Source: Pseudoscleropodium purum (Eukaryota; Streptophyta; Bryopsida; Hypnales; Brachytheciaceae). Taken from it: 64,000 bases of DNA. Positions 16,610 to 61,560 of the stretch are shown piece after piece. Location: contig OZ017797.1 of the NCBI GenBank assembly GCA_963969395.1, forward strand, positions 34,472,001 through 34,536,000, in the 5' to 3' direction. How positions within the stretch are numbered: the first letter of the stretch is position 1; each line of letters opens with the position of its first letter. Under the pieces are notes generated by a model, which saw only the letters and a list, made by a program, of their open reading frames with translations, searched no databases and had not been told where the DNA came from. Both the position numbers and the translations under genes were made by a program.

Positions 16610-18655
16610 CACTAGTAGAAAAATCAACATCCAAATTGACAAAAAATTGGTAATTTTTTTTGTTGATTTTTTTGTTAATTAGGACATGTTGATTTGAATA
16701 CTACATAGCAAGAAAATGTTGATTTGGACGTCCAAATTAACACTTACCTATAGTTCATCAACAAAAAAGTGTTGATTTTCACCAAAAAAAATTATGGATT
16801 TTTATCTCATTAATAAAAAATGACTAATGGGGATGAGACATGTGGCACCCACCATGTGGGCAAGCTACCTACACAACCTCGCCACATAGGTAGGGCACCA
16901 TTGGGGTTTGAATGTGGGACCTTCGAGATGAAACCCAAGGTCCTTTACCATTAGGCAACCCACTCTCTTAAGTAATTGTGAAGTTATTAGTTTTGTATTT
17001 AACTAGTTTTTCTTTTTCTTTTTCATTTGCTTTGTAAAGTAAGTAGACTTTGGGGGTTGTTTTGACATAGTAGAGTAAGTTTTTTCTTAAAACTTTCAAC
17101 TAAGGAAAGTTGTGAAATGAAGCTACTTGTCATTTCCAAAAATTAGTTTAGAATTTTGAGTCTCCAATAAAAATTTATGGAAAAAATTCAGAGAGGATGT
17201 TCAAAAATGTCAAAGAAAAATGACCATTCCAACCCCTCTTTGAATTTTGTCCATAACTTTTGAATGGAGACTCAAAATTCTAAACGGATTTTTGTATAGG
17301 AAAGCTAACTTCATTTTCCAACTTTTTTTAGGTAAAAGTTTTGTGAAAAAAATTAGTCTACTATGTCCAAGCGGACACCAAAGTTTGCTGACTTTTAAAA
17401 GCACCAAAATTATTAGGAATCTCAAAAAAATTCTTAAAATATCTCTATTTATAAAAATAAACATTTCAATTTGATTTCTTGAATTGATTTTTACATGAAA
17501 AGCTTTGAAGTATTCTATTTTGATTAATGAGATGGAAATTATGAAGATTTTTAATTTATTGGTAATTGTGGAATTTGTACTCTAAAATAAATTTTGATAT
17601 CTTTTTTGTAACTCAATTTCAAATATTGTTGAAAAGGAAATAATAACAGTGGATCTACATTGTTTATTAAAACATTACAAATTAATCATGATTGGAATTG
17701 ACATATCTAAATTCTAGCTATAACTAAAATTTAAAAACCTTTCAAATTTAAATTATAACAATCCCTTGAAGATGTTAATTCTCTAATCAAAAGTTAAGAA
17801 CCAAATAGAGATAGGTGTTGGAAATTATTTTTTTATAAATTCAATAAACTTTGGAGGTTGTTTTGGTATAGTAGAAGATTTTTTTTGAAAACTTTTTGAA
17901 CTAGAAAAAATTGCCAATTCAAACAAGATTTCATCTCTGAAATTCCATTTGAGGTTTGAAGATTTTACTCAAAAGTTTTGGACAAAGCTCAGAGAGGTTG
18001 GGAAATCATTACTTTTGACATTTTAAAATATCCTCTCTAAATTTTGTCCATAAATTTCAATTAGAGAATTAAAACTTTAAACGGATTCTTGGAGATTAAA
18101 GCTTTCTTGAATTTCCAACTTCTTTAAGTTCAAAGGTTTTTCCAGAAAATTCTTCTACCATGCCAAAACGGCCTCCAAAATCTACTAAATTTAAAAAATA
18201 ATAATTTTCATCACTTCTTTGAATTTTGACCATAATTTTTTATTGAAGAATTGAAATCTCAAACGGATTGTTGGAGATGAAAGTTGGTTCAATTTCACAA
18301 ATTTTTTTAGTTGAATTTTTTTTAAACAAGTTCATTTTTTATGCACAAATGACCTCCAAAGTCTGCTGACTTTAATAGACACCGAATTGTGAATACTAAA
18401 TTGTACAATGAAGATTTCAATAGATTTTAATTCTTAGAAATTATTAGAAATATTCTTAGAGATTCTTAAAGATTCTAAAAGATTTCAAAAGGTTCCAAAA
18501 AATTTCAACAAAAATTTGTTGATTTTGTCACTACACTACCTAAATCAACAAAAAAATGTCATCATTAATAAAAATGTGAAAACAATCATTGCAATACCCA
18601 AATCAACAAAAATATTTTGAGTTTTTGTTGATTTGGATGTCATTTTCTAGTAGTA
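16610..18655. mobile_element. CACTA (EnSpm)-type non-autonomous element
   Basis: The left end begins CACTAGTAGAAAAATCAACA, and the reverse complement of the right end begins (T)ACTACTAGAAAATGACATC, so CACTA-type termini face each other over about 2.05 kb. Flanking triplets GAA and AAA could be a 3-bp target duplication with one change. Words TTGATTTGG and CCAAATCAACA recur near both ends like subterminal repeats. Inside are two hairpin units, each of two inverted arms (about 17,041-17,400 and 17,850-18,190) sharing the ...CATAGTAGA... motif. There is no transposase, and a SINE-like insertion sits at 16.8-17.0 kb. Confidence 0.6.
16822..16975 (-). mobile_element. tRNA-derived SINE (Au-like)
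   Basis: On the minus strand TTGCCTAATGGTAAAGG fits an RNA polymerase III A box, and about 40 bp on CATTCAAACCCC fits a degenerate B box. A GTGGCGAGGTTG-type body follows. Spacing and order match tRNA-related plant SINEs such as Au. The ends are approximate and no target duplication was fixed. It lies inside the CACTA-type element. Confidence 0.5.
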
Positions 18656-21715: not shown

Positions 21716-22654
21716 TTAACCCCTACAGGACCAAACTATGTTTTTTGGCAATATAGAAATTTTAGGCAGCTAGGTGTGTGTGATTAGAGATTTCCATGTT
21801 TTTGACCCAAATTTTGATAGAAGGTGTGAATGAGAAATATCTTTCATATACACTAAATTTCAAGACATTTAAAAATATGAGTCAAAAGTTATGGCCTAAT
21901 ATGTAGTTTGTTTCTCAACTCGGGTAGTTCAAGGAGATCTGAAAAAATCAATTTTTTCAAAAATCCAAATTTGAAATTGGTTTTCTAGATTTATATATAC
22001 ACTAAAAGCTTTGAATCATTCCATTTTGATTAATGAGTCAAGAGTTATGAGGTGTTTTTGTTTGCGGGCAGTTATGAATTCTCTACCCCAAAATTAACTT
22101 TGAAGTCTTTTCTTGAACTCGATTTTCAATATTTTTGGAAAAAAAATAAAAACATTAGATGAAGATTGTTTATTACAACATTACAACCATTGGTATTGGC
22201 ATTTTTTTGTTTCCATAAGTAAATTGCTAATAATTTAGTATTTTGAACCATTTTCTACATCTTTCTACTTACTATTTTTTCCTATATGTTGTATAATTTC
22301 AAATGATCTAAAAAATTTCAAGCATGTATCCAACATGCCTTAAAGAATGAATCCAATTAGTTGAAATCATTTTGAATATTTTTTCTTACAAATATGACCT
22401 TGTGAAGTTCAGCTGCCTAGTTTTTCGCAGGGACAAAAAAATGATTTTTGTCACTTCAAATGCTAATATCCTGCAATCTACAGGATGGAAATTTCTGAAA
22501 TTTTTACCACATCGTTTCAAAATAGTGTACTTCAAGATCCTACAGTTACATGTGTCCAAAAATGTTTTTTTTCTAAAATTTGAAACTTGTATGAGAAATG
22601 GCAGTTTTGGAGCATTTTTTGGCAAAAACATAGTCAAGGAACTTTAGGGGTTAA
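21716..22654. mobile_element. piggyBac-like non-autonomous element, copy 2
   Basis: The left end is TTAACCCCTACAGGACC, and the right end reverse-complemented is TTAACCCCTAAAGTTCC. Further in, both ends carry ACTATG. TTAA borders each side. The 939-bp length matches the copy at 3,433. Frames at 22,372-22,647 on both strands are incidental, and no transposase residues were seen. Its 3' third recurs at 39,960-40,147 and in part at 48.5-48.66 kb. Confidence 0.6.
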
Positions 22655-30133: not shown

Positions 30134-30141
30134 ATTTAGAG
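30134..30141. repeat. 8-bp target-site duplication, left copy
   Basis: ATTTAGAG directly abuts the left terminus and is repeated perfectly at 45,229-45,236 next to the right terminus. Eight bp is the duplication length typical of hAT elements. Confidence 0.85.
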
Positions 30142-30159
30142 CAAGGTTGACGAATCTCA

Positions 30160-30325
30160 ACGTCCGCCCCAAAATAGCGTCCGTTTTTCGGACGTCCGGA
30201 CGCTAGCGGACGCAGCGTCCCTCCCACCGTCGGAAGGCGGACGCGCGGGGCGGGGCGGACGGCTGGGGCGGTCGGGCGTACAGAGCAGACGGGGCGGATG
30301 GACAGGGCGGACGGGGCGGACTTCG
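30160..30325. repeat. GC-rich motif island, left subterminal
   Basis: About 165 bp of dense GGACG/CGTCC words. An inverted block (CGGACGTCCGGACGCTAGCG) is followed by repeated GGGGCGGACGG units. It matches the composition of the right subterminal island (45,065-45,218) and of the islands upstream of the internal genes. Its placement next to the terminus suggests a protein-binding array, as subterminal repeats serve in other hAT elements. Confidence 0.75.
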
Positions 30326-30623
30326 CATTGCCATTAGTCATTAGAAAATTTTATATTGTTATGTAATTTGAATGTTACACAATCACAAATGAATGCATCC
30401 ACGTAAAATAAGATGTACATATAAAAATATTTTTATACGCAAATGAAAATATAGCATCTTTATATATAAATATATATGTATAAACAAAATACATGAAAAC
30501 ATAGTTCCAATATCACTATTGAATCCTATACGATCTTTTTAAGATCTAAATCTTTCACATTCTTTTTTGTTTTTAAACAATGAAAGGACCATTGTTTTTA
30601 AAAAACAAAATTCTCCTCAAATC

Positions 30624-33600
30624 CTACTTTCCACCAGATGGACCACTACCTTCTCCCAAAACAAAAGGAAAATCTGCTGTACCGAGGAGTTTAGCAGATG
30701 ATTGACGAGTTGATCGTTGTTGACTTGGACGGACTATTCGCCCTCCAGATTGAACTTCGATGTCCACCTTATGAAATTGTTTCTTGGTTTCCGGAGAGAA
30801 GTCATCGTCCTCTTCACGCTTCCTTTTTTGTTTTCTTTTCGGTGATAAATCGACTTCGTCTGCCTTCAAGGTTCTCAAGTTGCTCTCCACACGATCTACC
30901 ATCGCTTAAACAACTTCATCATCTGCTTTCCCTTGCCATATTGTGAGGCAGTCTCCATCCAATAGGAAAGCCTTCCAATGCCCTATAATATCGCCAATGC
31001 ACCTATCAAATGTTGCTGCCACATCTACAAATGAATGTTCTGTGCTTGTTTGTCCATTTGTATTATAGACATCACGAACTTTTGCAGCCTCTTCCAACTT
31101 CGACAATAGAAGGGCCTTACCTACGAGGGTGTGGTCGTATGCCTTATACTGCTCATCGAACTCTTTTCCATGGTTCACCTCCACCCAACTGTCTTCTGGT
31201 CCTCTCTCCACTTTTTTATCTGGAAAACGAAAGAACTTTTCGTGTTGCAAGCTCCAATGTCCCCCCATGTTGCGACAAAACATTTCACGGGCCGCGTCAT
31301 CTACGATTCCTCGAGCTCGCAATTCCACCTCTCTATTGTGAGTCATCCACACATCCAAATCCAATGGTTGCTGAGATTCCTCGCACAAATCATGCCTTTG
31401 TTCATTTGCATTCTACCGGATTGGCTTCCCCCAATGTTGATAATTTTGAAATTTGTACGGCGCTTGATCAAGAGGAAGATTCCAACGATTGTACTCGTGG
31501 CCTGGAGGCATAGCTTCCAAGATACCAAACATTTCGTAGAACCTAGCACTCAATGGACTACGACACTCGGCACACACCGAACGAATGAGTGATGCTTTCA
31601 CAATGCAAGTGACATGGAAAGTGTGGCAACATTGGCCCATGGTTACCGCACCTTCCGGTCCAAAGAGGCCTTGGCAAAGGCTACAACAACCATCCAAGAT
31701 TGGAGAGGCTAGATCACAAGCATGCACCACTCGCTTGTCTTTCACATTGATGTGTGCTGAAAGTGTGTTGTAAAGGACCCATCCTTCCTCTACTTCCAAG
31801 GCCCAATTGATGGGTGGAGCTTGGTCCTTCTGTGTGTGGTTTAACCGCTCAAACATGGCATTCATGTCTCCCCAACATGTGATCTCCGTATATCCCTTTG
31901 AAGGATGTTGGTCAAACATAGTCTTGAACCAACTCAAAGAGTTTTGAATGGCATCGCAATTTTCATTCGACTCCATTGCCAATGTTTGAAGACCTGCCAT
32001 TGTTCGAGATACTATAGAGGGTCTGTCTTGGAGTCTTTGTACCCATGCTAACCATCGAGACTCCAAGCCGCTAGATGGCATAAACTTCTTCAAATCCAAG
32101 CACAATTGCAATCGATTCAACTTGGATTCAATGATTCCTTTTGCTTCAATTGCCTCCTCCAATTTATGCTTCAACTCTTCAAAGTCACAACTCTCCGTTT
32201 GCGTCTCCGCATTCATGTAAACGGATGAAAGCTTTTCCATTGACGATTGTTGTGTCGCTTTTAACATGCTCATGTCGTGACTTTCTTGTACATTCACAAT
32301 GGCAGGATTGTTGCTTGCTTCGGCCTTATCAAAAGGAAGAGAGAGCTTATCTTCACTCTCTTGAGTCTCTTGACTGTCTCCGAGTACAATCACTGGTGAG
32401 ATTGCAACCTCATTTGGATTTTTGGAGGTCCTTTGCAATTCTGCAATCCGTTTACGCATCTTCATCAACTCCTCCATTTGCCTTAATGATTGTTGATTTA
32501 AATGTTCAACCTCACTCTCCAAAGTCTTTAATTTCAACTCCAACACTTTGCACCTTGCTTCCACTCCTCCAAGGTCAACAATTTTCTTCTCATATTCCAC
32601 CAATTGTAGTATGTGAAAATCTTTTTCTTCGAAAAGTGGTCCGAAAGTCTTCGTGAGATTCTGAAATGCTATAGCACCTTTCAACATCTCTGGTGCTATT
32701 AAAGAAAACTCCTTGGCCAAATTCATAAAAGTCGGAGCAGCTTGCGCTAAAAATTCAGCTGACATCGTTATCTTGAAAGTTGTATCAAGTATATGTGCAA
32801 CATCCTTTGGATCTGCAAGTGGACTCATTGGAACAGTAGTAGCACCATCATCGGGGTTCGACGATCCGCCTATTTCTTCATGAAGGTTAGCAAAATGAAC
32901 CGAGAGCTTCAAAAGATTTTCCAATTGTTTTGGATTAGACATGTCTTGTAAGGTTCGATGTAGAGGACTTAGCAATGCCGCTGTAATTGGAAACTCCTCC
33001 GCCCGCCTTTTACGCTCGGAACTCCATAATGACGATATATTATCAATCGTCACGCCTTGTCCACGAGGCGTATGTACTTTGTCTTCTAAACTTAAGGCTA
33101 GACTAGATTCAACGCCTTGATGCACAGGCGGAGATTTGTAGACCAAACTATCAAAACAATTGTTGGCTATCAGACTATCAATTGTAGCATTAGCCTTTGC
33201 CACTTTCTCTGCCAAGACTTCGTCTACTTTACTTTTTGAAGTTTCCCCGCGTTCCGTACAAACCTTGCCTTTGTTTACAAACTCTGTTTGCGTTTGTGCC
33301 GCAACATTTGGTGTAAAGGTCAAACGCGTTGGAGCTGTGGAAAAGACTTCACCCTCCTGCGCCTCTACATCTTTCTCCACATCTTTCCCCACATTTTTCG
33401 AAGAGCTTTCATTGATTGCTTTTGTTAGAGATTGTATAGACCGTAATTCTTCAACATTTGAGGCTTTCTCCACACCATCTGTTTTCACCTCAATAGTATT
33501 TTTTAATACTTTTTCTATTTCTCCCTTTGAATTGTACAAGTCAGGAATGTCCTTTTGATTGGCTTCAAGTAGAAGTAGGCAAGCTGTTGTCGTCGGAAAC

Positions 33601-34018
33601 GTGCTCCAATTGATCTTGCGCTCTAATATAAGTTCTGCATAAACCATACACGCCACGCTATAATTAATATAGCCTTTACTTCTGCACTTGTTTCCGAATA
33701 GAACATGCCACACCTCCTTAGATCGATGGACAAAATGTTGTTGCAAGTCCATGGTTTACAACAAAAATCCCGTGTATGACTCTTGTGTGACTCCTGAGGC
33801 CACAACTTGTCAATGTGGTACATTTTAACATAGGTCCTGCACATTTTTGATGTCCAATACTCCACGTCTTCATCTTCCCACCCGCTCTCTGCTTTAATTG
33901 TAGGGTCATTTAAAATGTCAAGCCGAAGGTCATGCGTAGCCCCCTTCACTTTGCTTTTTTTCTTCACTTCACTTCCCGGAGTCACCCCATCCATATTTCG
34001 ATCACCTTCGCCGTTCAT
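30624..34018 (-). pseudogene. Zinc-finger-like / coiled-coil / RING-H2 protein gene, broken
   Basis: The gene runs from the ATG at 34,018 to 30,624. The first part (34,018 to about 33,760) holds MCRTYVKMYHIDKLW, homologous to the N-terminal domain of the gene at 40,697. A one-base shift near 33,750-33,800 moves to the main frame (33,752 onward), which has NYSVACMVYAE, coiled coils at about residues 385-441 and 530-570, and a RING-H2 finger (C690, C693, C708, H710, H713, C716, C727, C730). The frame then passes a TAG (31,413-31,415) and a TAA (30,906-30,908) and continues in phase to a Lys/Arg-rich, nuclear-signal-like end. Both stops could be changed CAG or CAA codons. A RING-H2 finger suggests ubiquitin-ligase activity, which is inference. 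The tail beyond the first stop could be non-coding, but phase and charge pattern argue it was coding. Confidence 0.7.
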
Positions 34019-34089
34019 GATTGTCAATTGGATTCAATAACCAATTGAAGTGAATAAAAAAATCTCACGTGATAGTCAAAAGTGATGGC

Positions 34090-34389
34090 ATCAACCGCAA
34101 CACAGTAACACAAGATAGAGGACCCCAACTCTCCACCCCGTAGGAGCAACTAGCGCATAAAGCAATAGTAACACATCCAACTTGGCACCGAAGGAGAATT
34201 GAAGTGAAAAGAAATGAAAAGTCACTCCACCCTTATAGCCATCCGCCGCCGAACCTAGAGGCCATCTGCCACCGGACCTGCCCCGGACCGCGCAAAGCGG
34301 CCCCGAACCTCGTGTCCGCTTCGGCAGCGGACGCGCCGTCCGCCCGTCGCCCCGTCCGACCACCCTGACCGACCGCCCCGTCCGACCGC
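34090..34389. repeat. GC-rich motif island upstream of the RING gene
   Basis: Dense CCGTCC/GTCCGCC words at about 34,230-34,389, just upstream of the minus-strand gene start at 34,018. It is cut by the nested element and resumes at 37,643. It corresponds to the islands preceding the two plus-strand genes, so it probably carries the promoter. Confidence 0.65.
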
Positions 34390-34398
34390 TGTCGCAGT

Positions 34399-35572
34399 AC
34401 AGGGCAGGTAAATTCCCCATTATACTCACAAAAATCGCTCTAGAGTATAACTAAGTGACTCTAAAGATCGAACCTACGAGATCCTGTGAAGTATCTAGCT
34501 CTATTAAGCAGTTAAGCTCAGTCAGTAACCCAATCTTACTTTCCGGTCCTAGATCTAAAACCAGAAATACCACCACACCGGATAACTATAGACCGGATTA
34601 TTCCTTCTTCCGATCCTACTAACTATCCGGTCTGTGCAAATATCCAAATCCCAGGATCTTTACAACTTCCGGTCCTGGAAATCCGTCCTGACCAATCCGG
34701 TCCGGATGGTCATCATGTATCCGTAATCCTATCCGGTTTGGTTTTGCCTCTGTTTCACCATCAGAGGGGTCGCCGCTTAATTTTGAGAGTGGTAGGCCCA
34801 CCACTCCTTCCGTGACTTATAGTGGCTGAAGACCCACTATCCTACTTCCTAAACTCCTAAGCTAATCCGGATCCGGTTTGGTCCTTCACAACAACCCAGA
34901 TAGCAATCCGGGTTGTAGGTCACACAAAGACCCCACACTCGACCCTCTCATACTACAACGACCTTGATGCTACTTCCGATCCGTGCGAAGACAGGTGGTT
35001 ACAAGTGTACCCGTCCGTTCCAACATCAACTAAAGTTCTTCCGTTTACCAACTAAGGCGGTAAGACCTCACAGGAGATCGGACACTCGACCGGATTTCCC
35101 ACCCGGGAGTTCTAGCGTAGCTAAGGAATCCCTCCCTACCCGCCTAGCCTAACAACGGCTTTCTCACCCGGAATCTCAAACTCTAGACGTGCTGAGGAAC
35201 TAAGTTCACTCCCAACTCTTAGATACCTACTCACATGCACCTAGGATCGGAAAAAAAACACCAAGGGGAGAAATCACTCGCAAACCGGCTCGTACTATCC
35301 TAACTCTACATCATACAATCCTGTCGCGCTGGAGAGAGACACACAATGAGGAGAAGAGAAAGGTACAAGAATTTTGCAAAATGAAGACTCCCAGTTCCCA
35401 TCGCAGGAACCGATTTATATACAAAGGGTAAAAACCCTAAAAGCACAAAAAGGAGCGGAAAACCCGTGGGGGTCCGCCGCCACCCTAATCTAACTTCCGG
35501 TCTGACCTAATACTGTTGAGCCGGATCCGGATCCGGATCCGCTCCTACTCCTAACTGAAATCAAAATCCTAT
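34399..35572. other. 3' non-coding part of the nested element
   Basis: No protein recognised. TCCGGTCCTA/ACCGGAT words occur every few tens of bases, and a TATATAAATCGG box lies at about 35,410-35,421 on the minus strand. A GGATCC-GGATCC run lies near 35,522-35,542. Confidence 0.5.
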
Positions 35573-37231
35573 CTACTCTACAACCCTAGATCCTATTGTC
35601 GGGCTTCCTCTCTCCGGAACCAGCTCCTCGAAGACTTCACTCAAGTTCCGGTTCCGTTCCCCCTCCGCAAGGTTAGATCCGGGTGAAGACTCCAGGTCGA
35701 TTATAATATCCGGTCTCGTGCCCAGATTCTCAGTCCGTGTTGACTTCTTGGACTCGGGAGTCCAATCCTTCCCATCCTTTAGAACGGTCGCATCCGGAAA
35801 GGAATCCGGTAGCGAGAGGTCCGAGAGGTGTATCCCCTTGGAGCACGTTGCTCCAGTCAACTTCCGGCTGCTTTCCTTAATCCGGTCCGCAGCCTTCCGT
35901 CCCTCCATCATCGCCGTCTCCACCTGCTCAGCAAAGTCGGTGAGAATCCGGACCATCCGGGAACCGGATAGTTTCTTCTCCTCGTGGATCTTCTCGTCGA
36001 AGAGCTTCGCTTTGGTGGCGGCCGTTCTGGTCTCTCCCAGGGTGGCCTTGATTTGCTCGGCTATCTTCCGAGTCTCCTCCGCCATCTCCCGGATGGCCGT
36101 CACGTCTTCCTGATAGGCAAAGAGAGTTGCCTTCAGGGTGTCCACCTCCTCCTGCAACCGGCGGATCTCCGCTTCCTGTTTCCGGGTCTCTTCCGGATTG
36201 GTGATGCACTCCGCCACCTGTTCCGCCAACTTGCTGTCCGGTGGCGCATCTACCAACTTTCCGATTGCCGAAAGCGTCCTGTGCTTGACCTCCCAATCCG
36301 CCCTGATGTTGCAGAGGAGGTTGATGAGGCCGTTGAATGGATCTTGCATTTCCGGGTCTTTCCCGGAAACCGTCTTCTCGGCTTCCGGTCTCTCTTCCGG
36401 GGCCGGTCTGTCGTGACCGGGAGGCGTCCCGCGCTTGTGGGGAGGCGTCAACTTCTGTCACTTGATGGGCGGCATCGGCTCCTCCTCTTCCTCGCTTGAC
36501 TCCCGGTCTGAACCGGAATCGGATTCGGCCTCGTCATCCGTTTCCGACTCCCCATACTTCAGGAGGACTTCTTGAGTCCTCCACACCTTCTCCTCCGCGT
36601 CGGTGAGGACTTGGTTTTCCCGATAGAGGTGGAAGAGGTAAGGGCACACTAGACTGGCCCTCTTCTTCCCAACTCTACTAACGAGCTGGGTCACGAGATC
36701 GGAAATGATCCGTGCCCAGTCCACTTTCCGGGTACCACTGAGGGCACCGAAAATGGTGTTGCCGAGGGTGATCGTCACCCTGGTCGGCTTTTCCGGGTGA
36801 AGGACCGGAACCAAGAACTGCAGAAGCCGACGGTGTCGGTCATCCACACAATCCTCGACCGCGTATCCGTCCTTCGGGTTGACGGCCCCCTGGAACTTGC
36901 CTCGGACAAACTCATCCTTCCGGTTTGCCATTCCTAACCCTCTTGCCCGGAAACCGTAAACACCTCTCCACATTCCCTCGTTCCAGCGGATGGGGGATCC
37001 CCTCACGCTGTTGTCAAACTGGTTGGACAGTTTGCCAAGGAGTTCCTTGACCATTCTCTCCTCCCTAAAACCGCAGGGTTTCTCGGCAAACCCTAGGCAA
37101 CCCATAGAGGTGAGATCCTCCATGAGTTGAGACTTTTCCGGCTCTATGGAGGGAATAACCGGAATGACTTTCCGGAGCTTCACCTCGCCTCTAGAGGGAC
37201 TCGCTGGTCTAGACCTACGTAGCGGCGGCAT
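35573..37231 (-). pseudogene. Gag-like / plant-transposon-type protein with in-frame stop
   Basis: From the ATG at 37,231 a single frame runs to 35,573 (553 codons), broken by TGA at 36,458-36,460. The first part (about 257 residues, MPPLRRSRPASP start) has a Lys/Arg-rich N-terminus, a middle with WARIISDLV and CPYLFHLYRENQVLT stretches, and a very acidic end (SEEEEEPMPPIK). The second part (about 290 residues) is Pro-rich, then a long charged helix rich in E/K/A typical of coiled coil. The CPYLFHLY-type block recalls the plant gag or transposon-associated protein families, but this is only a resemblance. The TGA could be a changed CGA (Arg), since the reading frame and style continue directly. 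Read-through cannot be excluded. A TATA box lies about 165 bp upstream. Confidence 0.6.
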
Positions 37232-37395
37232 TCCCACTTCAATCTATCTCACTCTCTCCTAGCCGCACGTCCCGTTCCTCACGTTCTCTCTCCGATCTCA
37301 ACCGGAATCAAAGCCTACAGCACACAAACGCGAAAACTCGACCACGCGCGCTCAAGGTCAAGTTTCTAAAAGGGCGTGCAACAGTGAAGGCTCCT

Positions 37396-37406
37396 CCTTA
37401 TATAGT
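37396..37406 (-). promoter_or_regulatory. TATA box of the nested element
   Basis: The minus strand reads ACTATATAAGG here, about 165 bp before the ATG at 37,231. This is a good match to a plant core promoter in both sequence and distance. Confidence 0.55.
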
Positions 37407-37642
37407 CTCTGGACCATTTCCGGTTTGGTCATCATGAATCCGGTCCTAGACCTAATCCGTGTTGTATTCCGTTTCCATCGATAGTTACTCCTGACCGGAT
37501 TAGATCCAAGAGGCCCACTACTTCATGTTCTGTGCTAATTTTGAGTTTTCCTTCTCCACCTAATCGGATCCGGTTCCCTAATGACTAGTTTCCGTTCCTA
37601 TTTTGGTGCATACTAAGAAAATCAAAATTTTAAGCTGCGACA

Positions 37643-37800
37643 ACCACCCCGCCCGCCCGCCCCGTCCGCCCGTCACCCCGTCCGACCGCCCGTCCGACCG
37701 GCGCGTCCGCCCAGACTGTCCGCCTTCCGACGCCGTCCGCACTTTGGACACGCCGACCGCCCCACTTAAACACTGACCGCCGACGGCATCCGCCCAGCTG
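37643..37800. repeat. GC-rich motif island, continuation after the nested insertion
   Basis: CCGCCCGTCCGACC-type words continue here after the nested element. Joined to 34,230-34,389 it forms one island of about 320 bp, similar in size to the island at 40.2-40.56 kb. Confidence 0.65.
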
Positions 37801-39959
37801 TCAATTGGTGCATCCTATGAGGCCATTATTATTCAAAAAGAGCGGTAACATTTCAAAAATAAAACAGCCTAATAATCACTGCTAAATGAAGATCAATGTA
37901 ATTGGTTTGTCATTTTTTTTTCTCCTAAATGTAAACCCTAAACCTTATACCCTTATTACCCTAAACCTTTTCTTTTCTCCCCTAAATTGTTTTACGAATG
38001 AGGGGAATGTGGTTAAGTTGAATATGTTTGAATTAGTTACTGATATTATTCCTCTAAATAGGTTTTGAGAAGATTTGAAGATGGTGGGGATTTTTTTAAA
38101 GTTCATTAGGAAATCAAATGTTTTGCAAAAATAATCAATTCCATTTTCATTGTAAGCAACTGAAATTTTAAAAAAAGGCCCCAATACATAATTAGAATAA
38201 CAGTTAAATGGATTTCAACCTCATGATATTTAATGAAAGGTTGTGATTTCTCATTAAAAGTGCATCACGATCTTCAAATGAACATCGAGTCTTTCATATT
38301 TCTTAATGAAATTTTGATTAGATTTGAAAACAAAGAAAAAGAAACAATGTTTTAACTTTCAAATCATGTATGGCTATATTTTTTCTTAAAAACATAGAAA
38401 AATTCGTTACTTCAGTTGGTGGAGTAGAATACATTATACATGTGCTATATTTATTTTGAAGGGTAATTCCAATATTCTTATTTAAGATGTTTTTAAATAT
38501 TAATTTTAAAAAAGAAGGTTCATTGTTTAAATATCTAAAAAATTGACAAATATAATTTCTATTATAAATAGGAATTGAATTCAGAATTCGATTTTTGAAA
38601 TGATTCAAATGAACAAGATATTGATTATAAAATATTTCTTTGTTTGAGTTTTCAAAATGAATTCACGAAACAATTGCAAACTTTTGAACTTAGGTATATG
38701 GTACTATTTTTGGTTTGTACTTTGTAGAGTATAATATTTCCATTTTAATCCTAAATAAATGAAAAAATTCCACATGAATGAAATGTTTTTATGTATTGCA
38801 CAAAGATTTCTACCAATTATTATGATAATTAAATACATTGTTACATTTCATAAAATATTCTACATAAAAAAAAAAAATCATTTCAGTTTTCAATCATGAT
38901 AAACGATGTCTTCTACTCTTTCTGTTATATGTTCATTTTATATAACGTGTACATTATACAATCTTTGAGAGCAAGGTAGTTCATTTTTGGCTCTCATTGA
39001 AATAGAAAATATATTTGTGTTTGGATTTTGAAATCATTATGTATTCTACAGTCTTACAAGAATACATCTTGTTTCTTCCTTTGAATCCTTTTGATATTTT
39101 CTTTTTTTTCCTTTTTTTTCTGTCTTATAGGGCTCTTATTATCTTGTTCTCTTCATTTGACCAACCTATTTGGCTTGGCTCTTAGTTTTTTGTTTTTTTT
39201 AATGTAATGGTTTATGCATATGTTATAAAAAATTATATATTATTTATCTAAAATTAATATATTGATGAACAAACGCATAAAGGCATTGAATGCTTTCACA
39301 TTTAAAGTTATAAATCTATCATAAATCACTCTTGCAAATTTGAATGATTGAATCGAAAATTTGAAAATGTAATTACAAGAGCTTTCAATTCAATCAATTG
39401 CATAAATCATAAATGTTGAAATGCAACTCGTATAAGTTTAGCATCTATGAAGATTAATTCATGTCATCCACATGCAATTTTCCAATTTAATAAAATGCAA
39501 TTAAGTACTTCAATTTTTTTCTTTTCAATTCTCTAAGTAACATTCACTTCATATATTTCTCTATTTGTTTATCTATTTTTTGGCAACAAATGGAGAAACC
39601 ATCTTTGTCTATATTTGCACATGCACTCTTATTTGATTGATGAAGAATAGATCTATGAAATATATAATCATTGATTTGTTCATGTTGATTTATCTAATAT
39701 ATTTTATATATGTATATATATTTATATATATATATCATTAAAGGAGTATGGAAGACAAGATTGACAGATTGTGTTTGAATGTTGTTGATTTTGAAATGAT
39801 TTAGTATTATATCATTTATAAGAATATTATAATAGTATTATGTTATAATATTCCTAAAACAATTGCAACAAATATTAAAATACATGCTAAGTTAGGTTTG
39901 TTAGCCTACCAATTGTTCATTAATAGACATAATTGAGTAGCCGCCTTAAATGAAACATT
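37801..39959. other. AT-rich central spacer of the large element
   Basis: About 2.2 kb of strongly A/T-rich DNA between the divergent gene modules. It holds (TA)n runs (about 39,700-39,735), poly-T stretches and short unrecognisable frames. No gene seen. Confidence 0.5.
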
Positions 39960-40147
39960 CAATATCTAATATCTTACAATCCAAATGGTGGATTTGTCTA
40001 AAATTTTTTCCACATTTTTTCCAACTAATTTACTACAAGATCCTACGGTTACATATGCCCCAAAGTATTTTTCCTTCTAAGACTTGATATTTGCACTACT
40101 ATTGGCAGTTTTGAAGTGTTTTTAGTGAAAAGAACTTTACGGGTTAA
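39960..40147. mobile_element. piggyBac-like element fragment (right end)
   Basis: ATCTTACAATCC, GATCCTACGGTTACAT, GGCAGTTTTGAAG and the final ACTTTACGGGTTAA follow the same order as the last 190 bp of the 21,716-22,654 copy. The left part is missing. It lies within the 15-kb transposon. Confidence 0.5.
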
Positions 40148-40204
40148 ACATCTCTACAGTGAGATTTTGAAAAAAGAACAATTTCCTTCATTAGGTGTCG
40201 GATT

Positions 40205-40560
40205 TAAGATGAGCTGTCCGCCCTGTCCGCCCGATCCGGCGTCCGCCTTGTTCGCCCCGTCCGCCCCGATACCCGTCCGCCTTGTGCACCCCGTCCGCCG
40301 CGATATCCGTCCGCCCGTCCTCCGTCCATCATGTTTGCCCGATCCGGAGTCCGCCCAGTCCGCCCTGTCCGCCCCGATACCCGTCCGCCCCGGTATGGCC
40401 GTCCGATTGACACGCAGACTGATGTGGTCCGCATGATCTGGACGTCCGTCTCGGGGCGTCCGCATATATATATGGGAAGGCGGACGGCTCATTCCGAACA
40501 ATCGTTCTCTTTTGGAGTGGGCGGATCAGTGCATTGGAAGCTCTTCGCGCCCCTTCCGCT
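40205..40560. repeat. GC-rich motif island upstream of the zinc-finger gene
   Basis: CCGCCC/GTCCGCC words with an internal duplication: the block GTCCGCCCCGATACCCGTCC occurs twice, about 120 bp apart. It ends with a (TA)n box and GGCGGACGG. It lies immediately upstream of the gene starting at 40,697. Confidence 0.75.
40464..40473 (+). promoter_or_regulatory. TATA-like box
   Basis: CATATATATATGGG stands alone in an otherwise GC-rich island, about 225 bp before the ATG at 40,697. It is a likely core promoter for the downstream gene. Confidence 0.45.
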
Positions 40561-40696
40561 TTGAGTGAATGATTGTTGTGAGATTGTTACAAATTTTCAC
40601 AAAGTTCACGCTTGTAAAATTTTAATTAATTAATTAAATCAAAATTTTGGTTCTTAAGCTTTCTAATTGTTTCATTCTCTTTGCTTCAGCTTCATC

Positions 40697-41959
40697 ATGC
40701 CAAAAGATAGAACACCTAAAAAAAGTAGTCGAAAGGGAAGACCCCAATTGTTCGATTGGGATGCTTGGGCCGATCCATTGTGCGTGGGTGAACCGGGATG
40801 GGAAGAAGAACCAACAAGAGTGTGGGATTGCTCAATGTGCAAGAAATATGTAAAAATGACTCACATTCAAAAACTTTGGCGACGTGAACGTGTAGAGCAC
40901 CAAGCGCCACGTTGGGAAGGACAAATGTCTACGTGCCAAAGTGAGCATTTCAAACAACGATACACACAAGTGCATCGAGTTCTTGGCATTAAAAGCGCCA
41001 AACCAAATATAATGAATTATAATGTTATGGCAATGGTTTGGGCAGAGATTGTACTCCACAAGGACGTGGACTAGCGTACTACTACAGGTCGCAATGTAGA
41101 GAACTATACGCGCACGGATGCCGTTATAGATACACAGTGGAGGGGCGCAAGCGATTGCATGCCAGAGTGGTCTAATCGAGGTTATCTACAACAACCTTCG
41201 GTTGTTCTACAAGATGCTGAAGATGCGTGGACAGATAACGATGATGATGATGATATGCAAGCGCCTGTCACATTTGGAGTTAGACACGAGCGGGTAGAAG
41301 AACGAGAACGAATTGAATTCGAACAACAAATGCAAGAGGCAACACGCAGAAGCCTTCAAGATCGTGGACGGCAAGATAGGCGTGGTGGGTCCTACGGACA
41401 TGAACATGGAACGCGAGAATCTGAACAAGGAAGAGGTGATTCATACTCTGGTTATGATCCTCAAAATAAATATGAAGGTGGAAGAGGGAGCTATGGATCC
41501 ACGCATTATGGTGGTTCAAGTGCAGTTGGTTCTCATTATGGCACTCCCCCTGAAATTGGCTCTCTAGGTGGAATAGGTAGCTATGGCAACACGCACTATG
41601 GTAGGTCTACTGAATCTGGTTCATATTATACGACGCCCACTCAAGTGGGCTCCGAAGGTAGTGGAGGAAGCCATGTAACCCCGCAGTATAGTTGCTCTCT
41701 TCACGGAAGCGCCCAATACTATCCGGGATCAACTAGAAGTGATTCATACGGGCATCATGGGGCCTCTTATTACGGGGCTTCAAATAAAAGAAGATCAGAG
41801 CCTACTACTCCGGTTCCTCCTCCCACTTTTGGAGGTTCAAATTATGGACAAGGAGGTGCACCGAGTGGATACCACGGAAACTACGGAGGTGGTCCGTTCA
41901 TTGGAGTACAAAGAAGAGGCAGCAGTCAACAATTTGAGTCCGATTCAGATTCCGAATAA
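40697..41959 (+). pseudogene. Zinc-finger-like protein with Gly/Tyr/Ser-rich tail, one in-frame stop
   Basis: A continuous frame of 420 codons starts at MPKDRTPKKSSRKGRP and is broken only by TAG at 41,072-41,074 (codon 126). The N-terminus is basic. Residues 43-110 hold WDCSMCKKYVKMTHIQKLW with C45, C48, H56, H68, C80 and H84 as possible metal ligands, then NYNVMAMVWAEIVL. The same domain opens the minus-strand RING gene, which has Trp at the place of this stop (INWST versus VD*RT), so TGG-to-TAG is likely. An acidic patch (DNDDDDDM) and an Arg/Gln-rich helix follow, then about 200 residues dominated by Gly, Ser, Tyr and His. The fold around the Cys/His set looks BED-like, but no hAT transposase core follows. 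DNA binding is inferred. Confidence 0.7.
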
Positions 41960-42544
41960 AAAAACATGCAAGTATATAGTGAGCATGTGTTTGCTCGATT
42001 TTCTCATTTTTACTCTCACGACAAGTATAGAGCACTAGATTGGTAGAAGTAGTACAAAATTTTAAATGAATAGAACAATTTTGAACAACAATTTTGTTCA
42101 CTTTTTCAAAAAGTGTTGTGTAATAGTGTACACCAAGTATGTATGTAGGCAAGCATATTGTTGAAGCCATCATTGTATTATTTTATAATAGCGTTGATGT
42201 ATACGGCTATAAGCGACTTTGATAAATAATAAAAATACGAAGAAAAAATGTAATTTTGTAAGAGCCATATTATGTTTATTTTTGAATTTAGCATTCGAGG
42301 TTAAATATGTACTAGCATGGTGTGTATTTTGAAATTATTGTTGTGTGTTTATTACATTTAGAAACTCGTAAATGGTATAAATGTATTTCTAATTAATTTA
42401 TGAAAGATTAAATTATTTGAATATTTGAAATTTTTTTATTTTTCATTCAATGATTGCTAAAAACTAAAATGATTTCTTATTCGTATGAAGAAATGCCCAA
42501 ATTAGACAATTAGTGGTTCTTCTTTAGATTCTATTTTCAAATAT
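41960..42544. other. AT-rich spacer after the zinc-finger gene
   Basis: No gene seen. Presumed 3' untranslated and intergenic sequence, with AATAATAAAAATA near 42,223 as a possible poly(A) signal region. Confidence 0.4.
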
Positions 42545-42985
42545 GAAAAATAAATCGGATCGGGCAGACGCTTGATTTGTCTGCCCGTGCCTGTCCGATG
42601 GGACGGACGGGCCGTCCGTCGCGACCCGTCGGATTGGGCGGACGCCAGATTTGTCCGCCCGTGGCCGTCCGATCGGGCGGACGCGGCTGTAGGGTTTCGG
42701 GGAGGCAGACGGTTGATGCGTCCGCCAGCCGCGGCCCGTCCGATCAAGCGGACGGTTTGGGGCCATCCGATGGGGTGGACGGGCCGTCCGCCGCTGCCCG
42801 TCGAATCGGGCGGACGGCAGATTTGTTCACCCGTGGCCGTCCGATCAGGCGGACGGGGCTCGAGGGTTTCGGGGAGGCGGACGGCCGATGCGTCCGCCAC
42901 CCCCGGCCCGTCCAATCGGGCGGACGGTTTGGAGCCGTCCACGCCCCAATAAGATGGGCGGACGGGCCGTCCGCATTGTCACTTT
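42545..42985. repeat. GC-rich motif island with about 175-bp tandem duplication
   Basis: GGACGGGCCGTCCG, an almost perfect palindrome, occurs at 42,605, 42,777 and 42,960, so a unit of 172-183 bp is repeated about twice plus an end. Within each unit GGGCGGACGG, CCGTCCGATC and AGGGTTTCGGGGAGGC recur. Frames of up to 146 codons on both strands come from the repeat. It lies upstream of the kinase-like gene. Confidence 0.85.
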
Positions 42986-43169
42986 TGCTTTGCCCCTTGT
43001 GAATGCAAGGTGGAGCGGAGAGCTTGGTGGTTCATCCTCCATTGGCTCCTTTCTGAGGCAAGGCAAGAGTGGTTTATTGGGGCCCCCTTGTTGCCAATTT
43101 TTTGGACACTTGCACGTGAATTTAATTTCAAATTAAAAAATTTGATCTATATCAATTTCATTTGTCACG

Positions 43170-44663
43170 ATGCCGAAGGGGAAGAAGAAGGTTGCGAAGC
43201 TTAAACATGGAGAGGGACCATCGAACTTGGAAGTAGCTCGCCAAAGTCCTTCGGAAGAATGCAAGAAATTCATGATTGAGCGCATCGTTCAATTTTAAGA
43301 ATCGGAAACAACATTGTCTTTAAACAATAAGTACATCAGATATCAAGAGGAGTGCGTGTCTAAATTCAAGGTAGACATGACACAGATGTTGTTGGATGCA
43401 TTGAATGTGGCGAAGTGGCATGACGAAATGCATAAAACTTACTTCACCAAATGTTTGGAGAACAAGGTTCATGACGCTTTGTGGAATTCCAAAGTCATTT
43501 TGGTTAAATATGGCAAGGAATATCGACCCAATGATGCCCAGTTTGAAGAAGTGATTCTGAAAGTGGACTTGTTTAGGGGGCGATGTGCTCCATTCGCCAA
43601 AAAGCACAATCGAGTTGGTTCAATTGGTTGGTGGAAAAGCAATGATGGAGTTGCTGAAGCGGAAAGGACCAAACGGCACCTCATAGCACTTCCAGATACA
43701 GCACGCGTGATTGTTGTTGACGATAGAACGATGAGAGGTGGATATGCAACGATTCGAAAGGTTCGTATTGAAGGATGTCTAGGAATACTTCCTTATTGGG
43801 AGTTTGCGGCAAAGAAATCCATTCACCACCAAACTCGACCCGATCTTGCAAAGTTAGAACATCAAAACGAATCAATGGCTGTTCGAATTCCACACGCGGG
43901 TGTGATACGGTTTACTGCAGTGCACGGAACGACGTGTGAAGGTTATGCGTATTGATGGAATGGTAGAACTCTTCGACAAATGTTGAATATGGATAAGGAC
44001 TATCCAAACAACATTCAAATCCGTTTGATGTATACAAATCCAACCGAAGAGGAGGTTGTAAAAGCTCACCGTTTAGGGCGATATCGGAAGAAGCGTACGG
44101 AGTTGACATGGACGTTTATGCATATAATGTATGCAGTGCATCTTGTTGGACATTTGTACAATGATCTTTCTCCGGACAACATTTTGTTGCATTTTTCAGA
44201 GGATGAGTCACGTGTGTATATTGGAGTTTGCGATTGGGGCATGACCACCTTAGCTTCTCAGCCAATGAAGTCTTTGTACACATTTACATCAGCAGATGAG
44301 ATGAAACAAACTTTGCAGAGGAGATGGTGGGTGGATCCACGTATTGCATATTTGCATAAAGCAGGTGCAAATGTGGAAGTCATTCCGATGTATTCACGTA
44401 AGTCGGAAGAGTATGCCATTCGAAAAATTGCTCGACGGATGAATGGAAACAACATGTCAGAGGCGTATTTCAACGTGCTACGAAAAACACCTAGTGCGAC
44501 ACAATTTGCCTTTCATGACTTTGCAAAAGTGTTTTATGCTTACTTGAAGCGCATTTCTTCGAAAACTGACGATGAAAATACTAGTTTGGCCCATGTGATT
44601 ACACGATTTTCTAATACATATAGTTGGCCGATGCCAGATGAACATTTCCGCCATTTATATTAG
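43170..44663 (+). pseudogene. Protein-kinase-like gene with two in-frame stops
   Basis: The ATG at 43,170 opens one frame to 44,663 (497 codons) with TAA at 43,296-43,298 and TGA at 43,953-43,955. The N-terminus is basic (MPKGKKKVAKLK). A kinase N-lobe is visible: Gly-rich loop RGGYATIRKV (about residues 189-198), an AAKK lysine (K215) and a candidate helix-C Glu near residue 230. In the C-lobe YNDLSPDN (Asp332, Asn337) stands for the HRD loop and DWG (355-357) for DFG. HRD His/Arg are replaced, so activity is uncertain. The TGA falls where a second Trp is expected (YAY*WNGRTL), consistent with TGG-to-TGA, and the TAA could be a former CAA. Kinase-like proteins with DLSPxN and CDWG motifs are, as I recall, common in non-flowering land plants. 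Its role in a transposon is unknown. Confidence 0.7.
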
Positions 44664-45064
44664 ATTGGTAGTGCAGAAGTAGTAGTTGAATACTTGAATA
44701 GGTTATATAGGCATTAAAAATTAGTTTAGAAATATAGAGTTGGAATGAAAAAAATTATATGTGCAATTAGCCAAATGTGCACAATGTATGGTATTCTACA
44801 TTAAATTGAATACATTTTGCCCATATTGATTATGTTTGTATTTGTGTTGATCTTGATTTTTTAAATAGTATATATATATATTTGAAGTCACAAATTTTTT
44901 TAGTTTGCCTTTTGAAAATGAATTGGAATTTTTTCATACTTTCAAGACTATCATGGACTCGTGGTCAAACTTTATAATCTTTCAACTTATGAGAGACATT
45001 GTTTTAATAACAAATCGCGAACCATTGCACTTCATTTAACATTTAATTGTTTAAAGATTAAGGG
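44664..45064. other. AT-rich spacer after the kinase-like gene
   Basis: No gene seen. Presumed 3' untranslated region leading to the right GC-rich end. Confidence 0.4.
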
Positions 45065-45218
45065 AGTGACCACGGGGTAGTTTGGGTAGGGCGGTCGGGG
45101 GAAATAGGGCCGTCTGGGCGGACGGGGCAAACGGGCAGGGCGGACGGACAGGGCGGATGGGGCGGTCCCGGCGGACGCTGCGGACACAACGTCCGCGTCC
45201 GAACGTCCCGGACGTCAT
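45065..45218. repeat. GC-rich motif island, right subterminal
   Basis: GGGCGGACGGGGC-type words lead into GCGGACACAACGTCCGCGTC-type inverted blocks next to the right terminus. This mirrors the left end (30,160-30,325), where inverted CGTCCG/CGGACG blocks also sit closest to the terminus. Confidence 0.75.
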
Positions 45219-45228
45219 GTCAACCCTG

Positions 45229-45236
45229 ATTTAGAG
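45229..45236. repeat. 8-bp target-site duplication, right copy
   Basis: ATTTAGAG, identical to 30,134-30,141, directly follows the terminus GTCAACCCTG. Confidence 0.85.
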
Positions 45237-55492: not shown

Positions 55493-58400
55493 CTAGCAAT
55501 TGGCCCTTGCTTTGCTACGCATTAAATATATTACTTTCATCAATTTTTCATGTGATAGAATGTAGATAAATAAAGTGAACAATGTAAGTAGAATCTTCAC
55601 ATTTAAATATCTAGAGCAATTAAGCAATAGTTTCAATTTCAAGAAAATCTTCAATTAAAAAATTATTAATCTTTGTATTAAACCTACAAATATATGTATG
55701 ATGAAATGTAGAATAATTTCAATAGTTTTGAAATCAAAATCTTTACAATGAAAGAATATGCAAAATCTTCACCTATAAAAATGTAGAATAAAGATTCTAA
55801 TTTCAATAAAAGATTCAAATAGTAAATTATAAAAATCTTCATAATCATTTGAATATATTGCAATCTAGAATAAAAGAAAAAAAAGATATATTAAAATTAA
55901 TTTTTATATATTAGAATCTTTGCATATTTCGCTATTTGCATACTCTCAAAGAAAAGTGATAAATTTTATAAGTAGATTGCATCTTAAGAGGCATGCTTTG
56001 GAATATCCTTCCATTGACTATAAAAGATTGTAGCAAAATGGCTATAAATATCATCCTACCATATTTATTCATATGGTAGGCTATCTCAATTGAGACAATG
56101 AAATAATAATGAACACCAAAAGAATGCAATTAGATAGAAGGGGATGTTGCCAAAGTGTGCATGAGCCCTAAACATGCAGAGTTTGGAACAAACTCTTAAC
56201 TTTTCCATCCACCTGATTCATTTGTAAATACATGTAGAAATCTCCAAGACAATGTCATGCAAAAACCTCATGATAAACCACATTTTTTACTGTTCCTACG
56301 GCTTTTGAATTGTTTGTAGGATGTCTACCACGAGACAAAGCCACATATAATTGACTATGGCTAAATACTTCATTTCAAAGATAAATGTCTACTCGATTAT
56401 ATGATTGGCCTTGCGATTTGTTGATTGTCATTGCAAAAGTACCAGTGATAGGAAATTGTCTCCGACATAGTGTAAATGGCAAGTGGCTATTGTTGCAATG
56501 ATGTGTGATTCTTGGAATCAACACTTTTTGGCTACAATGACGCCCTTTCACAATTTCACACAATAATATAGATGGAGATACTTGTAACAAACGTAGGCGA
56601 CTACTGTTGCACAAAGCTTTTGCTGGATCTTAATTTTTTAGCAACATTACATATTGACCACATTTAAGATTTAATTGATGAGGTGGCAAACCACTAAGAT
56701 GTAGAGAATTTAAAAACTCTACTGGATAATGATGGGTATGTTCATCATTTTCATGAACAAAATCAATGCTAAAATATTGATGTACATCATTAGGCATACA
56801 GTCAGTGATTTTATGGTTGATTTCTTGGGTATCATCATTTTGAACAACTAAAATTACATGCTCAAAGAAATCAAGGAGATCATCAAAAATTGCATCAATA
56901 AGTCCATTTAGAGAATTTTCATATGCAACCATTCCAAGTGGTAGCTCTACCTTTGAACCGGTTTTGCCTTCACCAATATTTAATAAAAATTGTTGAAAAT
57001 TCGGTTGACTTTGTAAATGCATATTAGTAGTCAATGAAAATGTTGCATTAGTGAAAACAAATAAGAATGTCACAAACAAGCCTCAACAGTTTGCTTACAA
57101 CCTCCACCTACAACGACAGGTAAAGCTTGACGGAAATCACCACCATATAAAACTACAAGACCGCCATTCAAAGTATCAATACCTCGAATATCTCGCAATG
57201 ATCGATCTATTATTTCAATCATAAATCTATGTCCAGTACAAACTTCACCAAGTACAATCAATTGTACTTCACGCAAACTTTGAGCTAACGATGATTGAAC
57301 ACTAATCAAACATGTTGATTTATCATGTAATTGTAATGAAATGGCAAAAGATGAATGTGTTGTTTGTCCTTCCTGCAAAAGACAAGCAACAATTCCACTT
57401 GTTGCCATTGCCATACATTTAATACCATAACCTCAAAGATAACCTAATATGGTATTATATATAAAAGTCTTACCAGTACCTTCAGGGCCATCCAAAAAAT
57501 ATAACTTACACAAAGAATGAGGTTTTAAAATGGCATTAGTAACTGCATTGAAAACAATGTGTTGTTCTTCATTTAATTTGTCTATGTCCTCTTCTATAAA
57601 GTTAATGTTTAAATTATCTAAGTTATTGTTGTCATTGGCATCATTACCAACATGAACAATATTTGAATAGCCAATTCATTAAAATCTTGGATATCAAAAA
57701 AATCTTCAATGTGTTTATTATTAAACGACAAATGTTCATTAATGAACAAAATCACTTTGCTATAGCAATTATGGTCATTAAGCCAATCATCAAATATAGT
57801 GTCAATATGTCTCATCAACAAACCAAAAGGATTCAATGGTTGTCCAAACATAAGAAGTGTTGCAAACAATTGTCGAATTTGTTTAGGCAATGAAATAACA
57901 ATTGCTTCTTGGAGACAATTGTTCCATTCACTATCGTCTTGTAAAAATTCTCTTGCAATGCAAATGGCTTTGTACATTGAATGTACCGTATTTTGAAAAC
58001 AAAATAAGTCATTAAACAAAGTTGGTGCCTCAATATGAGTCAATAATAAACGCAAGTAAAATAATTTGGTACCTACGGGAACCATATTTACTCTACCCAA
58101 AACTTTTATCTTGCGTTGTCTTCTTTCCTATAGATAATTTTTTTCATTTCATTTATAGTGCAATGGAAGATTCATGTATTGAAGAAGCATATGATTGTCT
58201 TGATTTCCAAAAGCAATCAAGGCATGAATGCGGCCATTGAGTTCAAAAAACTTTGTAAGTTGGTTTTAATGTTTTGATTAATCACTGATTGTAAAGATGT
58301 TCCTTCTTAGAAGGTAACATATTGTTGATCGGGAAGATGAATGGGTAAACGACAAATACTATGACTTTTGTTGTTGGTTTCAAAACCAAAGAACCTCCAA

Positions 58401-60300: not shown

Positions 60301-60396
60301 ACAATTACGAATCCTAAAACTCGCACTTTAGAATGTGGAAACAAAAAATAATGGTTTTGAAATTGCACCTTTATAACTTGTACTCCAAAAATCTTC

Positions 60397-60495
60397 ACTC
60401 TTTGAATATGCTTTACTTCACTCTTTGAATATGCTCCACTTTACTCTTTGAATATACTCCACTTCACTCTTTGAATATGCTCCACTTCACTCTAG
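60397..60495. repeat. About 25-bp tandem repeat (four copies)
   Basis: CACTCTTTGAATATGCTCCA-type units run head to tail four times with single-base variants. Confidence 0.85.
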
Positions 60496-60719
60496 TTTTT
60501 GCTTCTTGACATCCATAATACATCAACATATATTCAATAACAAATTTTGGATGTTAACACCTATTTCAAAATTTAGGTCAAATTTCGCCAAATTGATCAA
60601 ATTCATGTGCATGACATTACTCAAATTAAATCAAACCATTGAAATTATATTCAATTGTTCATGTTTGCCTCAAAAAATGCTAAAGTTATTCAAATTAGGT
60701 TTTAATTAAGTCAAACTAT

Positions 60720-61560
60720 TGACATTAGTTTACATTGCATTGATAACATTCGATTCATATTGTTCAAATGAAACTCAAATTGCCCAAATTAGATCAAACG
60801 ATGTTCAAATTGTTCAAATTAGATCAAATTATTGACATTAAGCTCAAATTAGGTCAAATTCCTCCAATTTGGCTCTAATTTCATTAATCTCTTGGAATTA
60901 AGTTGAATTGAAGCTCAAATTGCTCTCATTAGGTCAAATTGTTGATATTAAGTTTAAATTAGGTCAAATAGCTCAAATTAGGTCAAATTCTTCCAATTTG
61001 GCTCTAATTTCATCAATCTTGGAATTAAGTCGAATTGAAGCTCAAATTGCACTCAACTTGTTCAAATGAAGCTCAAATTGCTCACATTAGGTCAAATTCT
61101 TGACATTAAATTCAAATTAGGTCAAATTCCTTCAATTTGGCTCTAATTTCATCAATCTCTTGAAATCAAGTTGAATTGAAGCTCAAATTGCACTCAACTT
61201 GTTCAAATGAAGCTCAAATTGCTTACATTAGGTCAAATTGTTGACATTAAACTCAAATTAAGTCAAATTGCTCTCTAAGAATGCTCTAATTGTTCCAATT
61301 TGGTTCTAATTATATCAATCTCTAGGAATTAAGTTGAATTGAAGCTCAAATTACACCCAATTTGTTCAAATGAAACTCAAATTACTCACATTAGGTCAAA
61401 TTGCTCCAAGAATGCTCCAATTGCTCCAAGATTGCTTCAATTGTTCCAAGTGCTCCAATTTGACTCTAATTACATCAATCTCTTGTGTGAAATTAGATTG
61501 AAACTCAAATGACATTCAAATTGTTCAAATGAAACTCAATGTTCAAACCACCATTCTATG
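60720..61560. repeat. Higher-order tandem array of CTCAAATTAGGTCAAATT words
   Basis: The word CCAATTTGGCTCTAATT recurs at about 60,863, 60,993, 61,132, 61,295 and 61,455, so units of about 130-165 bp are repeated five times. Each unit is made of shorter AAATTAGGTCAAATTG and GAAGCTCAAATTG words. No coding capacity. Confidence 0.8.

Follow-up and report, generated by a model that had tools for sequence, protein, structure and literature searches.

The window, a 64,000-bp stretch of the Pseudoscleropodium purum genome, contains a unit framed by an exact 8-bp target-site duplication, ATTTAGAG, at positions 30134–30141 and 45229–45236. The two copies enclose 15,087 bp that begin with CAAGGTTGAC and close, in reverse complement, with CAGGGTTGAC. 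When the outermost ten bases on the left (30142–30151) were compared with the reverse complement of those on the right (45219–45228), nine of ten matched. The original prediction had described this duplication, these ends and this length, and its coordinates were exact. Each end continues inward as a GC-rich subterminal island, located at 30142–30330 on the left (+ strand; ten copies of GTCCG/CGGAC; CpG observed/expected ratio of 1.36) and at 45060–45228 on the right (− strand). The end pattern of hAT transposons is YARNG, which the ends of the element, CAAGG and CAGGG, fit; the unit thus has both the 8-bp duplication and the YARNG-type short inverted ends of a hAT element. Three large genes in a divergent layout had also been predicted inside the frame. 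This holds for the element's own genes, while a fourth gene-like stretch (35573–37243) belongs to a nested insertion.

Gene 1 (30624–34018, − strand, as delimited by tblastn of its relative P0065) encodes a RING protein of ~1,120 aa with an N-terminal domain that is also present in gene 2. Among the best 7,999 candidates scored, at least three relatives were found, two of them 1,120 and 1,121 aa in length. P0065 aligned to gene 1 in two frames, with 77% over residues 1–94 and 71% over residues 95–1121. The lesions of gene 1 are a frameshift near 33737–33740 and in-frame stops at 31413–31415 and 30906–30908. All eight zinc ligands, in RING spacing, were present in 3/3 relatives. The RING family PF17123 scored 27.9 in P0065, compared with a cut-off of 27, and was below the cut-off in P0066 and the window copy; the Pfam families found in P0065 and P0066 were RING-type and weak helical ones only. 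We consider the product a RING-type E3 ligase-like protein with putative ligase activity. Its structure model was mostly helical and of low confidence (pLDDT 33). The relative P0064, from a contig no longer than 49 kb, is 95% identical to gene 1. It does not share the frameshift of the window copy but shows a different frame change, indicating a separate copy or allele and hence at least two that have decayed independently.

Gene 2 (40697–41959, + strand; stop at 41072–41074) encodes a 420-aa protein with a new N-terminal domain and a Gly/Ser/Tyr-rich tail. We found 38 relatives at E ≤ 0.1, and none of them matched a Pfam family at 1e-3; one alignment combined 19 of the 38 with the window protein and another included all 38. 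The N-terminal domains of genes 1 and 2 are related (39% over 122 aa, E 5e-22; hhalign probability 99.5), and this domain was not found in the gene 3 kinase. Residues 21–130 of gene 2 were modelled with pLDDT values of 85–94 per block, against a whole-model mean of 60. A C-x7-H-x23-C-x3-H pattern is kept in the alignment rows that have letters there, with one Tyr-for-His exception, and P0065 has Gly instead of the first Cys. The domain common to genes 1 and 2 looks zinc-binding. A structural check against RNase H-fold transposases had been proposed; for gene 2 it was run and returned no PDB match whatever, and the structure comparisons gave no viral fold match either. As no known fold matched in what was searched, any function for the domain is a guess.

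Gene 3 (43170–44663, + strand; stops at 43296–43298 and 43953–43955) encodes a divergent protein kinase of 497 aa, with 55 relatives at E ≤ 0.01. Two alignments were used, one of 18/55 relatives plus the window protein and one of 33/55; the other 22 were omitted for query coverage of ≤80%, with P0062, at 80%, retained among the 33. The kinase residues Lys, Glu, HxD-type Asp, Asn and DFG-type Asp were all found: Lys196, Glu215, Asp313, Asn318 and Asp336 are each kept in 33/33 aligned relatives. Alignment members were scanned with Pfam for gene 2 (38 rows) and the kinase (33 rows) only; PF00069 (Pkinase) was recognised at 1e-3 in 29 of the 33 kinases, and the window protein itself fell under the cut-off (18.4 vs 31.7 bits). 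By these residues, gene 3 would be a member of the eukaryotic protein kinase superfamily with predicted activity. Together with the RING ligands of gene 1, they bear out the predicted presence of RING-like and kinase-like genes.

Two of the 55 kinase relatives carry a moss name, both from Ceratodon purpureus. One of these, the kinase-family protein P0043 (KC19_VG055000, on a 110-Mb contig), represents a cluster with 126 members, a size suggestive of high copy number. Judging from the two named relatives, the element is probably of moss origin. Another relative, P0010, is 72% identical to the kinase and carries the label of a Bacilli bacterium MAG, which probably reflects eukaryotic contamination.

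The window copy is dead, which the original prediction had left unsaid. All three of its own genes are broken, gene 1 by a frameshift and two stops, gene 2 by one stop and gene 3 by two, and full-length relatives of them exist. Apart from these lesions, the own genes align to their relatives as single frames without introns. Outside the element, the window gave no match at E 1e-3 to any of the 96 relatives found.

The element has also gained DNA. A 3,253-bp insertion (34390–37642, − strand) with ends TGTCGCAG...CTGCGACA interrupts the gene 1 island, the two parts of which have a 34-nt unit in common (91%). The flanks of the insertion, ACCGC and ACCAC, are alike in four of five bases. It has TG...CA ends and a TATA-like word, and no LTRs were found in it. 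Its gag-like gene (35573–37243, − strand) is interrupted by a single stop and is not an own gene of the element. This gene gave two sub-threshold Pfam matches, to Transposase_29 (E 8e-4, 18.2 bits vs a cut-off of 27) and to a YqgF/SPT6 resolvase-like family (E 0.075, 13.3 bits vs a cut-off of 35), both within its predicted helical part; a six-frame scan of the whole insertion recovered Transposase_29 again and did not repeat the YqgF match.

Genes 1 and 2 are separated by an AT-rich spacer (37831–40170; 25% GC over 37900–40100). At 39958–40147 it contains a copy of a dispersed repeat, other copies of which lie at 22455–22654 and 13607–13771. Without the nested insertion the unit would be ~11.8 kb, and without the spacer as well perhaps ~9.5 kb. 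The 15-kb size claimed for the element thus stands as the framed length of 15,087 bp and is inflated, as a measure of the element, by nested DNA. Elsewhere in the window, dispersed AT-rich repeats occupy 13130–13797, 17432–17680 and 21723–22654 in the left flank, and local tandem duplications are present at 60762–61539 (78% alike) and 5264–5880 (86% alike). A decayed Helitron lies at 56500–60500 (− strand), with Helitron_like_N (E 3e-48), PIF1 helicase (E 2e-42) and Pif1 2B (E 1e-13) domains, each in a different frame.

We then considered how much weight the frame can bear. The 64-kb window contained eight frames in which exact 8-bp repeats flank 10-bp inverted ends that differ at no more than one base, compared with a mean of 4.0 per window over 150 block shuffles and 1–8 in 20 Markov resamplings. 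Because comparable frames are this common in shuffled windows, the frame by itself is weak proof. When YARNG was required at both ends, a single framed pair was left in the real sequence, and 2 of the 150 shuffles contained any such pair.

The strongest evidence for an element is instead the distribution of an 8-base word, CGTCCGCC. Counted on either strand, it has 27 copies, which are spread over all six GC-island pieces; none lies in the remaining 62.5 kb. The island pieces were delimited by base composition, and the word was counted independently of the frame. Each end has such an island, as does the upstream region of every one of the three own genes. The gene 1 island has a proximal part at 34201–34389 (with a TATAA-like box at 34233–34237) and a distal part at 37643–37830, both on the − strand. 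The gene 2 island lies at 40200–40500 (+ strand; 16 GTCCG/CGGAC; TATA-like run at 40465–40473) and the gene 3 island at 42541–43000 (+ strand; 19 GTCCG/CGGAC), the latter including a 172-nt direct repeat in two copies (86%). Since the word marks both ends and the gene islands irrespective of the frame, the prediction of a single framed unit is well founded.

The edges of the gene islands, as set by composition, fall ~170–200 bases before the start codons of the three genes, with TATA-like words at the edge for genes 1 and 2 and none seen for gene 3. Within the end islands, the leftmost copy of CGTCCGCC starts at base 20 of the element and the rightmost at 45170, ~50 bases inside the right end; ACGTCCG is found close to each tip, at 30160 on the left and, in reversed form, at 45209 on the right. 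On the + strand, CGGAC exceeds GTCCG by 7 to 3 and 6 to 2 in the two end islands, indicating that the end arrays point in the same direction and that only the outermost bases are inverted. The CpG observed/expected ratio was 1.15–1.36 in the islands, 0.74–1.02 in the own genes, 0.38 in the spacer and 0.27–0.28 in the flanks. These values fit islands spared methylation-driven loss and equally fit a young insertion, and the CpG of the word itself raises the ratio. The islands could be just promoters and transposase sites. The occurrence of one private word at the ends and at the gene starts suggests that the element recognises itself.

No recognisable transposase core had been reported in the original prediction, and Pfam likewise recognised none in the five proteins, the six frames of 37780–40700 (where nothing matched at E 0.1) or the six frames of the nested insertion. 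Within these stretches neither a hAT DDE transposase, with its RNase H fold, BED finger and dimerisation domain, nor a KDZ transposase was detected; the Transposase_29 and YqgF matches contradict this in name only. A transposase acting in trans, or loss of the gene from this copy, is most likely. The description "hAT-type" rests on the duplication length and the end pattern, and we do not claim membership of hAT, which is not established.

Plant transposons that protect themselves by means of sequence-specific proteins are described for the VANDAL elements (PMC5735166, PMC10398659). In these accounts, VANC binds introns and intergenic and terminal noncoding regions, often at tandem repeats, and causes local CG hypomethylation. 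The domains given for VANC proteins are DUF1985 and DUF287 (PMC5735166); neither was found in the 38 gene 2 relatives (Pfam, 1e-3) or in P0065 and P0066. Like the element studied here, the VANDAL elements of Arabidopsis, with VANA, VANB and VANC, are multi-gene DNA transposons (PMC10398659), and both have motif repeats in noncoding and terminal regions. In contrast to VANDAL, our element shows no recognised transposase, and has an 8-bp duplication, short ends, a RING protein, a kinase and a new domain. The resemblance is therefore one of design and not of membership, and motif binding and anti-silencing are proposed here by analogy.

In our judgement there is about an even chance that the unit is a decayed member of a family of multi-gene cut-and-paste DNA transposons with hAT-like ends, probably from mosses, whose proteins serve self-recognition, expression or anti-silencing. 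Such an element would bring three genes of its own, for a RING protein, a protein sharing its N-terminal domain and a kinase, each with an upstream CGTCCGCC island that may act as its promoter. It would have been moved in trans or been stripped of its own transposase. The domain common to genes 1 and 2 might bind CGTCCGCC at the ends and promoters, and a domain reading this word would link recognition of the ends with expression and perhaps also with an escape from silencing. The targets of the RING and kinase parts could be host chromatin, host silencing factors or the transposase, and their action might keep the islands open as VANC does. More tentatively, and with doubts, we propose an undescribed lineage of plant transposons in which two proteins with a zinc-binding-like domain read the private word, while the RING ligase and the kinase either remove or block silencing or contribute to assembling a new type of transposase complex.

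Of the competing explanations, the one that survives best, though we think it unlikely, is a non-autonomous hAT element in which three captured host genes ride along as passive cargo. It would account for hAT-like ends without a recognised transposase, and ToxhAT, a cargo-bearing hAT element of ~14 kb, is a described precedent, albeit a fungal one (PMC12506042). Passive cargo would not be expected to carry an island of the end word at each gene, nor a domain common to two of the genes. The intronless single frames also speak against it, bearing in mind that the protein set of the relatives may favour intronless genes, as does the divergence of the window kinase from the Pfam model.

Somewhat less probable is that the ends belong to another superfamily making 8-bp duplications, such as KDZ/Zisupton or P, rather than to hAT. 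Zisupton makes duplications of this length, and the source describing it reports accessory epigenetic enzymes carried by DNA transposons of several superfamilies (PMC12730594). The failure to recognise a hAT transposase would also agree with this explanation, whereas the fit of both ends to YARNG does not. Unlike KDZ/Zisupton and the other TET/JBP-bearing fungal transposons, the element gave no match to a KDZ transposase or TET/JBP domain in our Pfam scans. With hAT elements such as Ac, Hermes and Tol2 it shares the 8-bp duplication, YARNG ends and subterminal repeats, but it has three other genes in place of a recognised transposase. Several hAT elements have end requirements far beyond the inverted repeats, and in Tol2 mutated subterminal repeats reduce excision (PMC10368747). 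The BED finger of Hermes is given as CCHC in the same source, and the zinc-ligand pattern here differs from it.

It is improbable that one of the three proteins, most likely that of gene 1, is itself a transposase of an undescribed type: gene 1 is large, carries the shared domain and has a structure model too poor to use, but its sole recognised part is a RING and the model, such as it is, is mostly helical. Single-frame genes for a kinase and a RING protein, each preceded by repeat-rich DNA, are reminiscent of large DNA viruses. A remnant of an endogenous virus is nevertheless very improbable, as viral contigs scanned for two genes held no relatives of the kinase or of gene 1, gene 2 had no viral fold match, and no capsid or polymerase family appeared among the Pfam matches. 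Least credible of all is that a cluster of host genes happens to be framed by chance: although about four such duplications with one-mismatch 10-bp ends arise per shuffled window, the end word is packed into the two ends and the islands of all three genes and occurs nowhere else in the 64 kb.

Two further systems invite comparison with the proposed transposon. In CACTA/Spm, the element protein TnpA binds subterminal motifs and the element's own promoter, and the ends are CACTA with 3-bp duplications. The element described here would be similar in having a protein at subterminal motifs and promoters, and differs in its duplication, its ends and its unrelated proteins. The Burro giant LTR retrotransposons of planarians carry extra RING and ubiquitination-related domains (PMC6431247); these are retrotransposons, whereas the element here is interpreted as a DNA transposon.

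If the element reading is true, it may explain an unnamed kinase family that forms large clusters in public data. It would also represent a second, independent design of transposon self-protection beside VANDAL, probably in mosses, where counter-defence could be tested.
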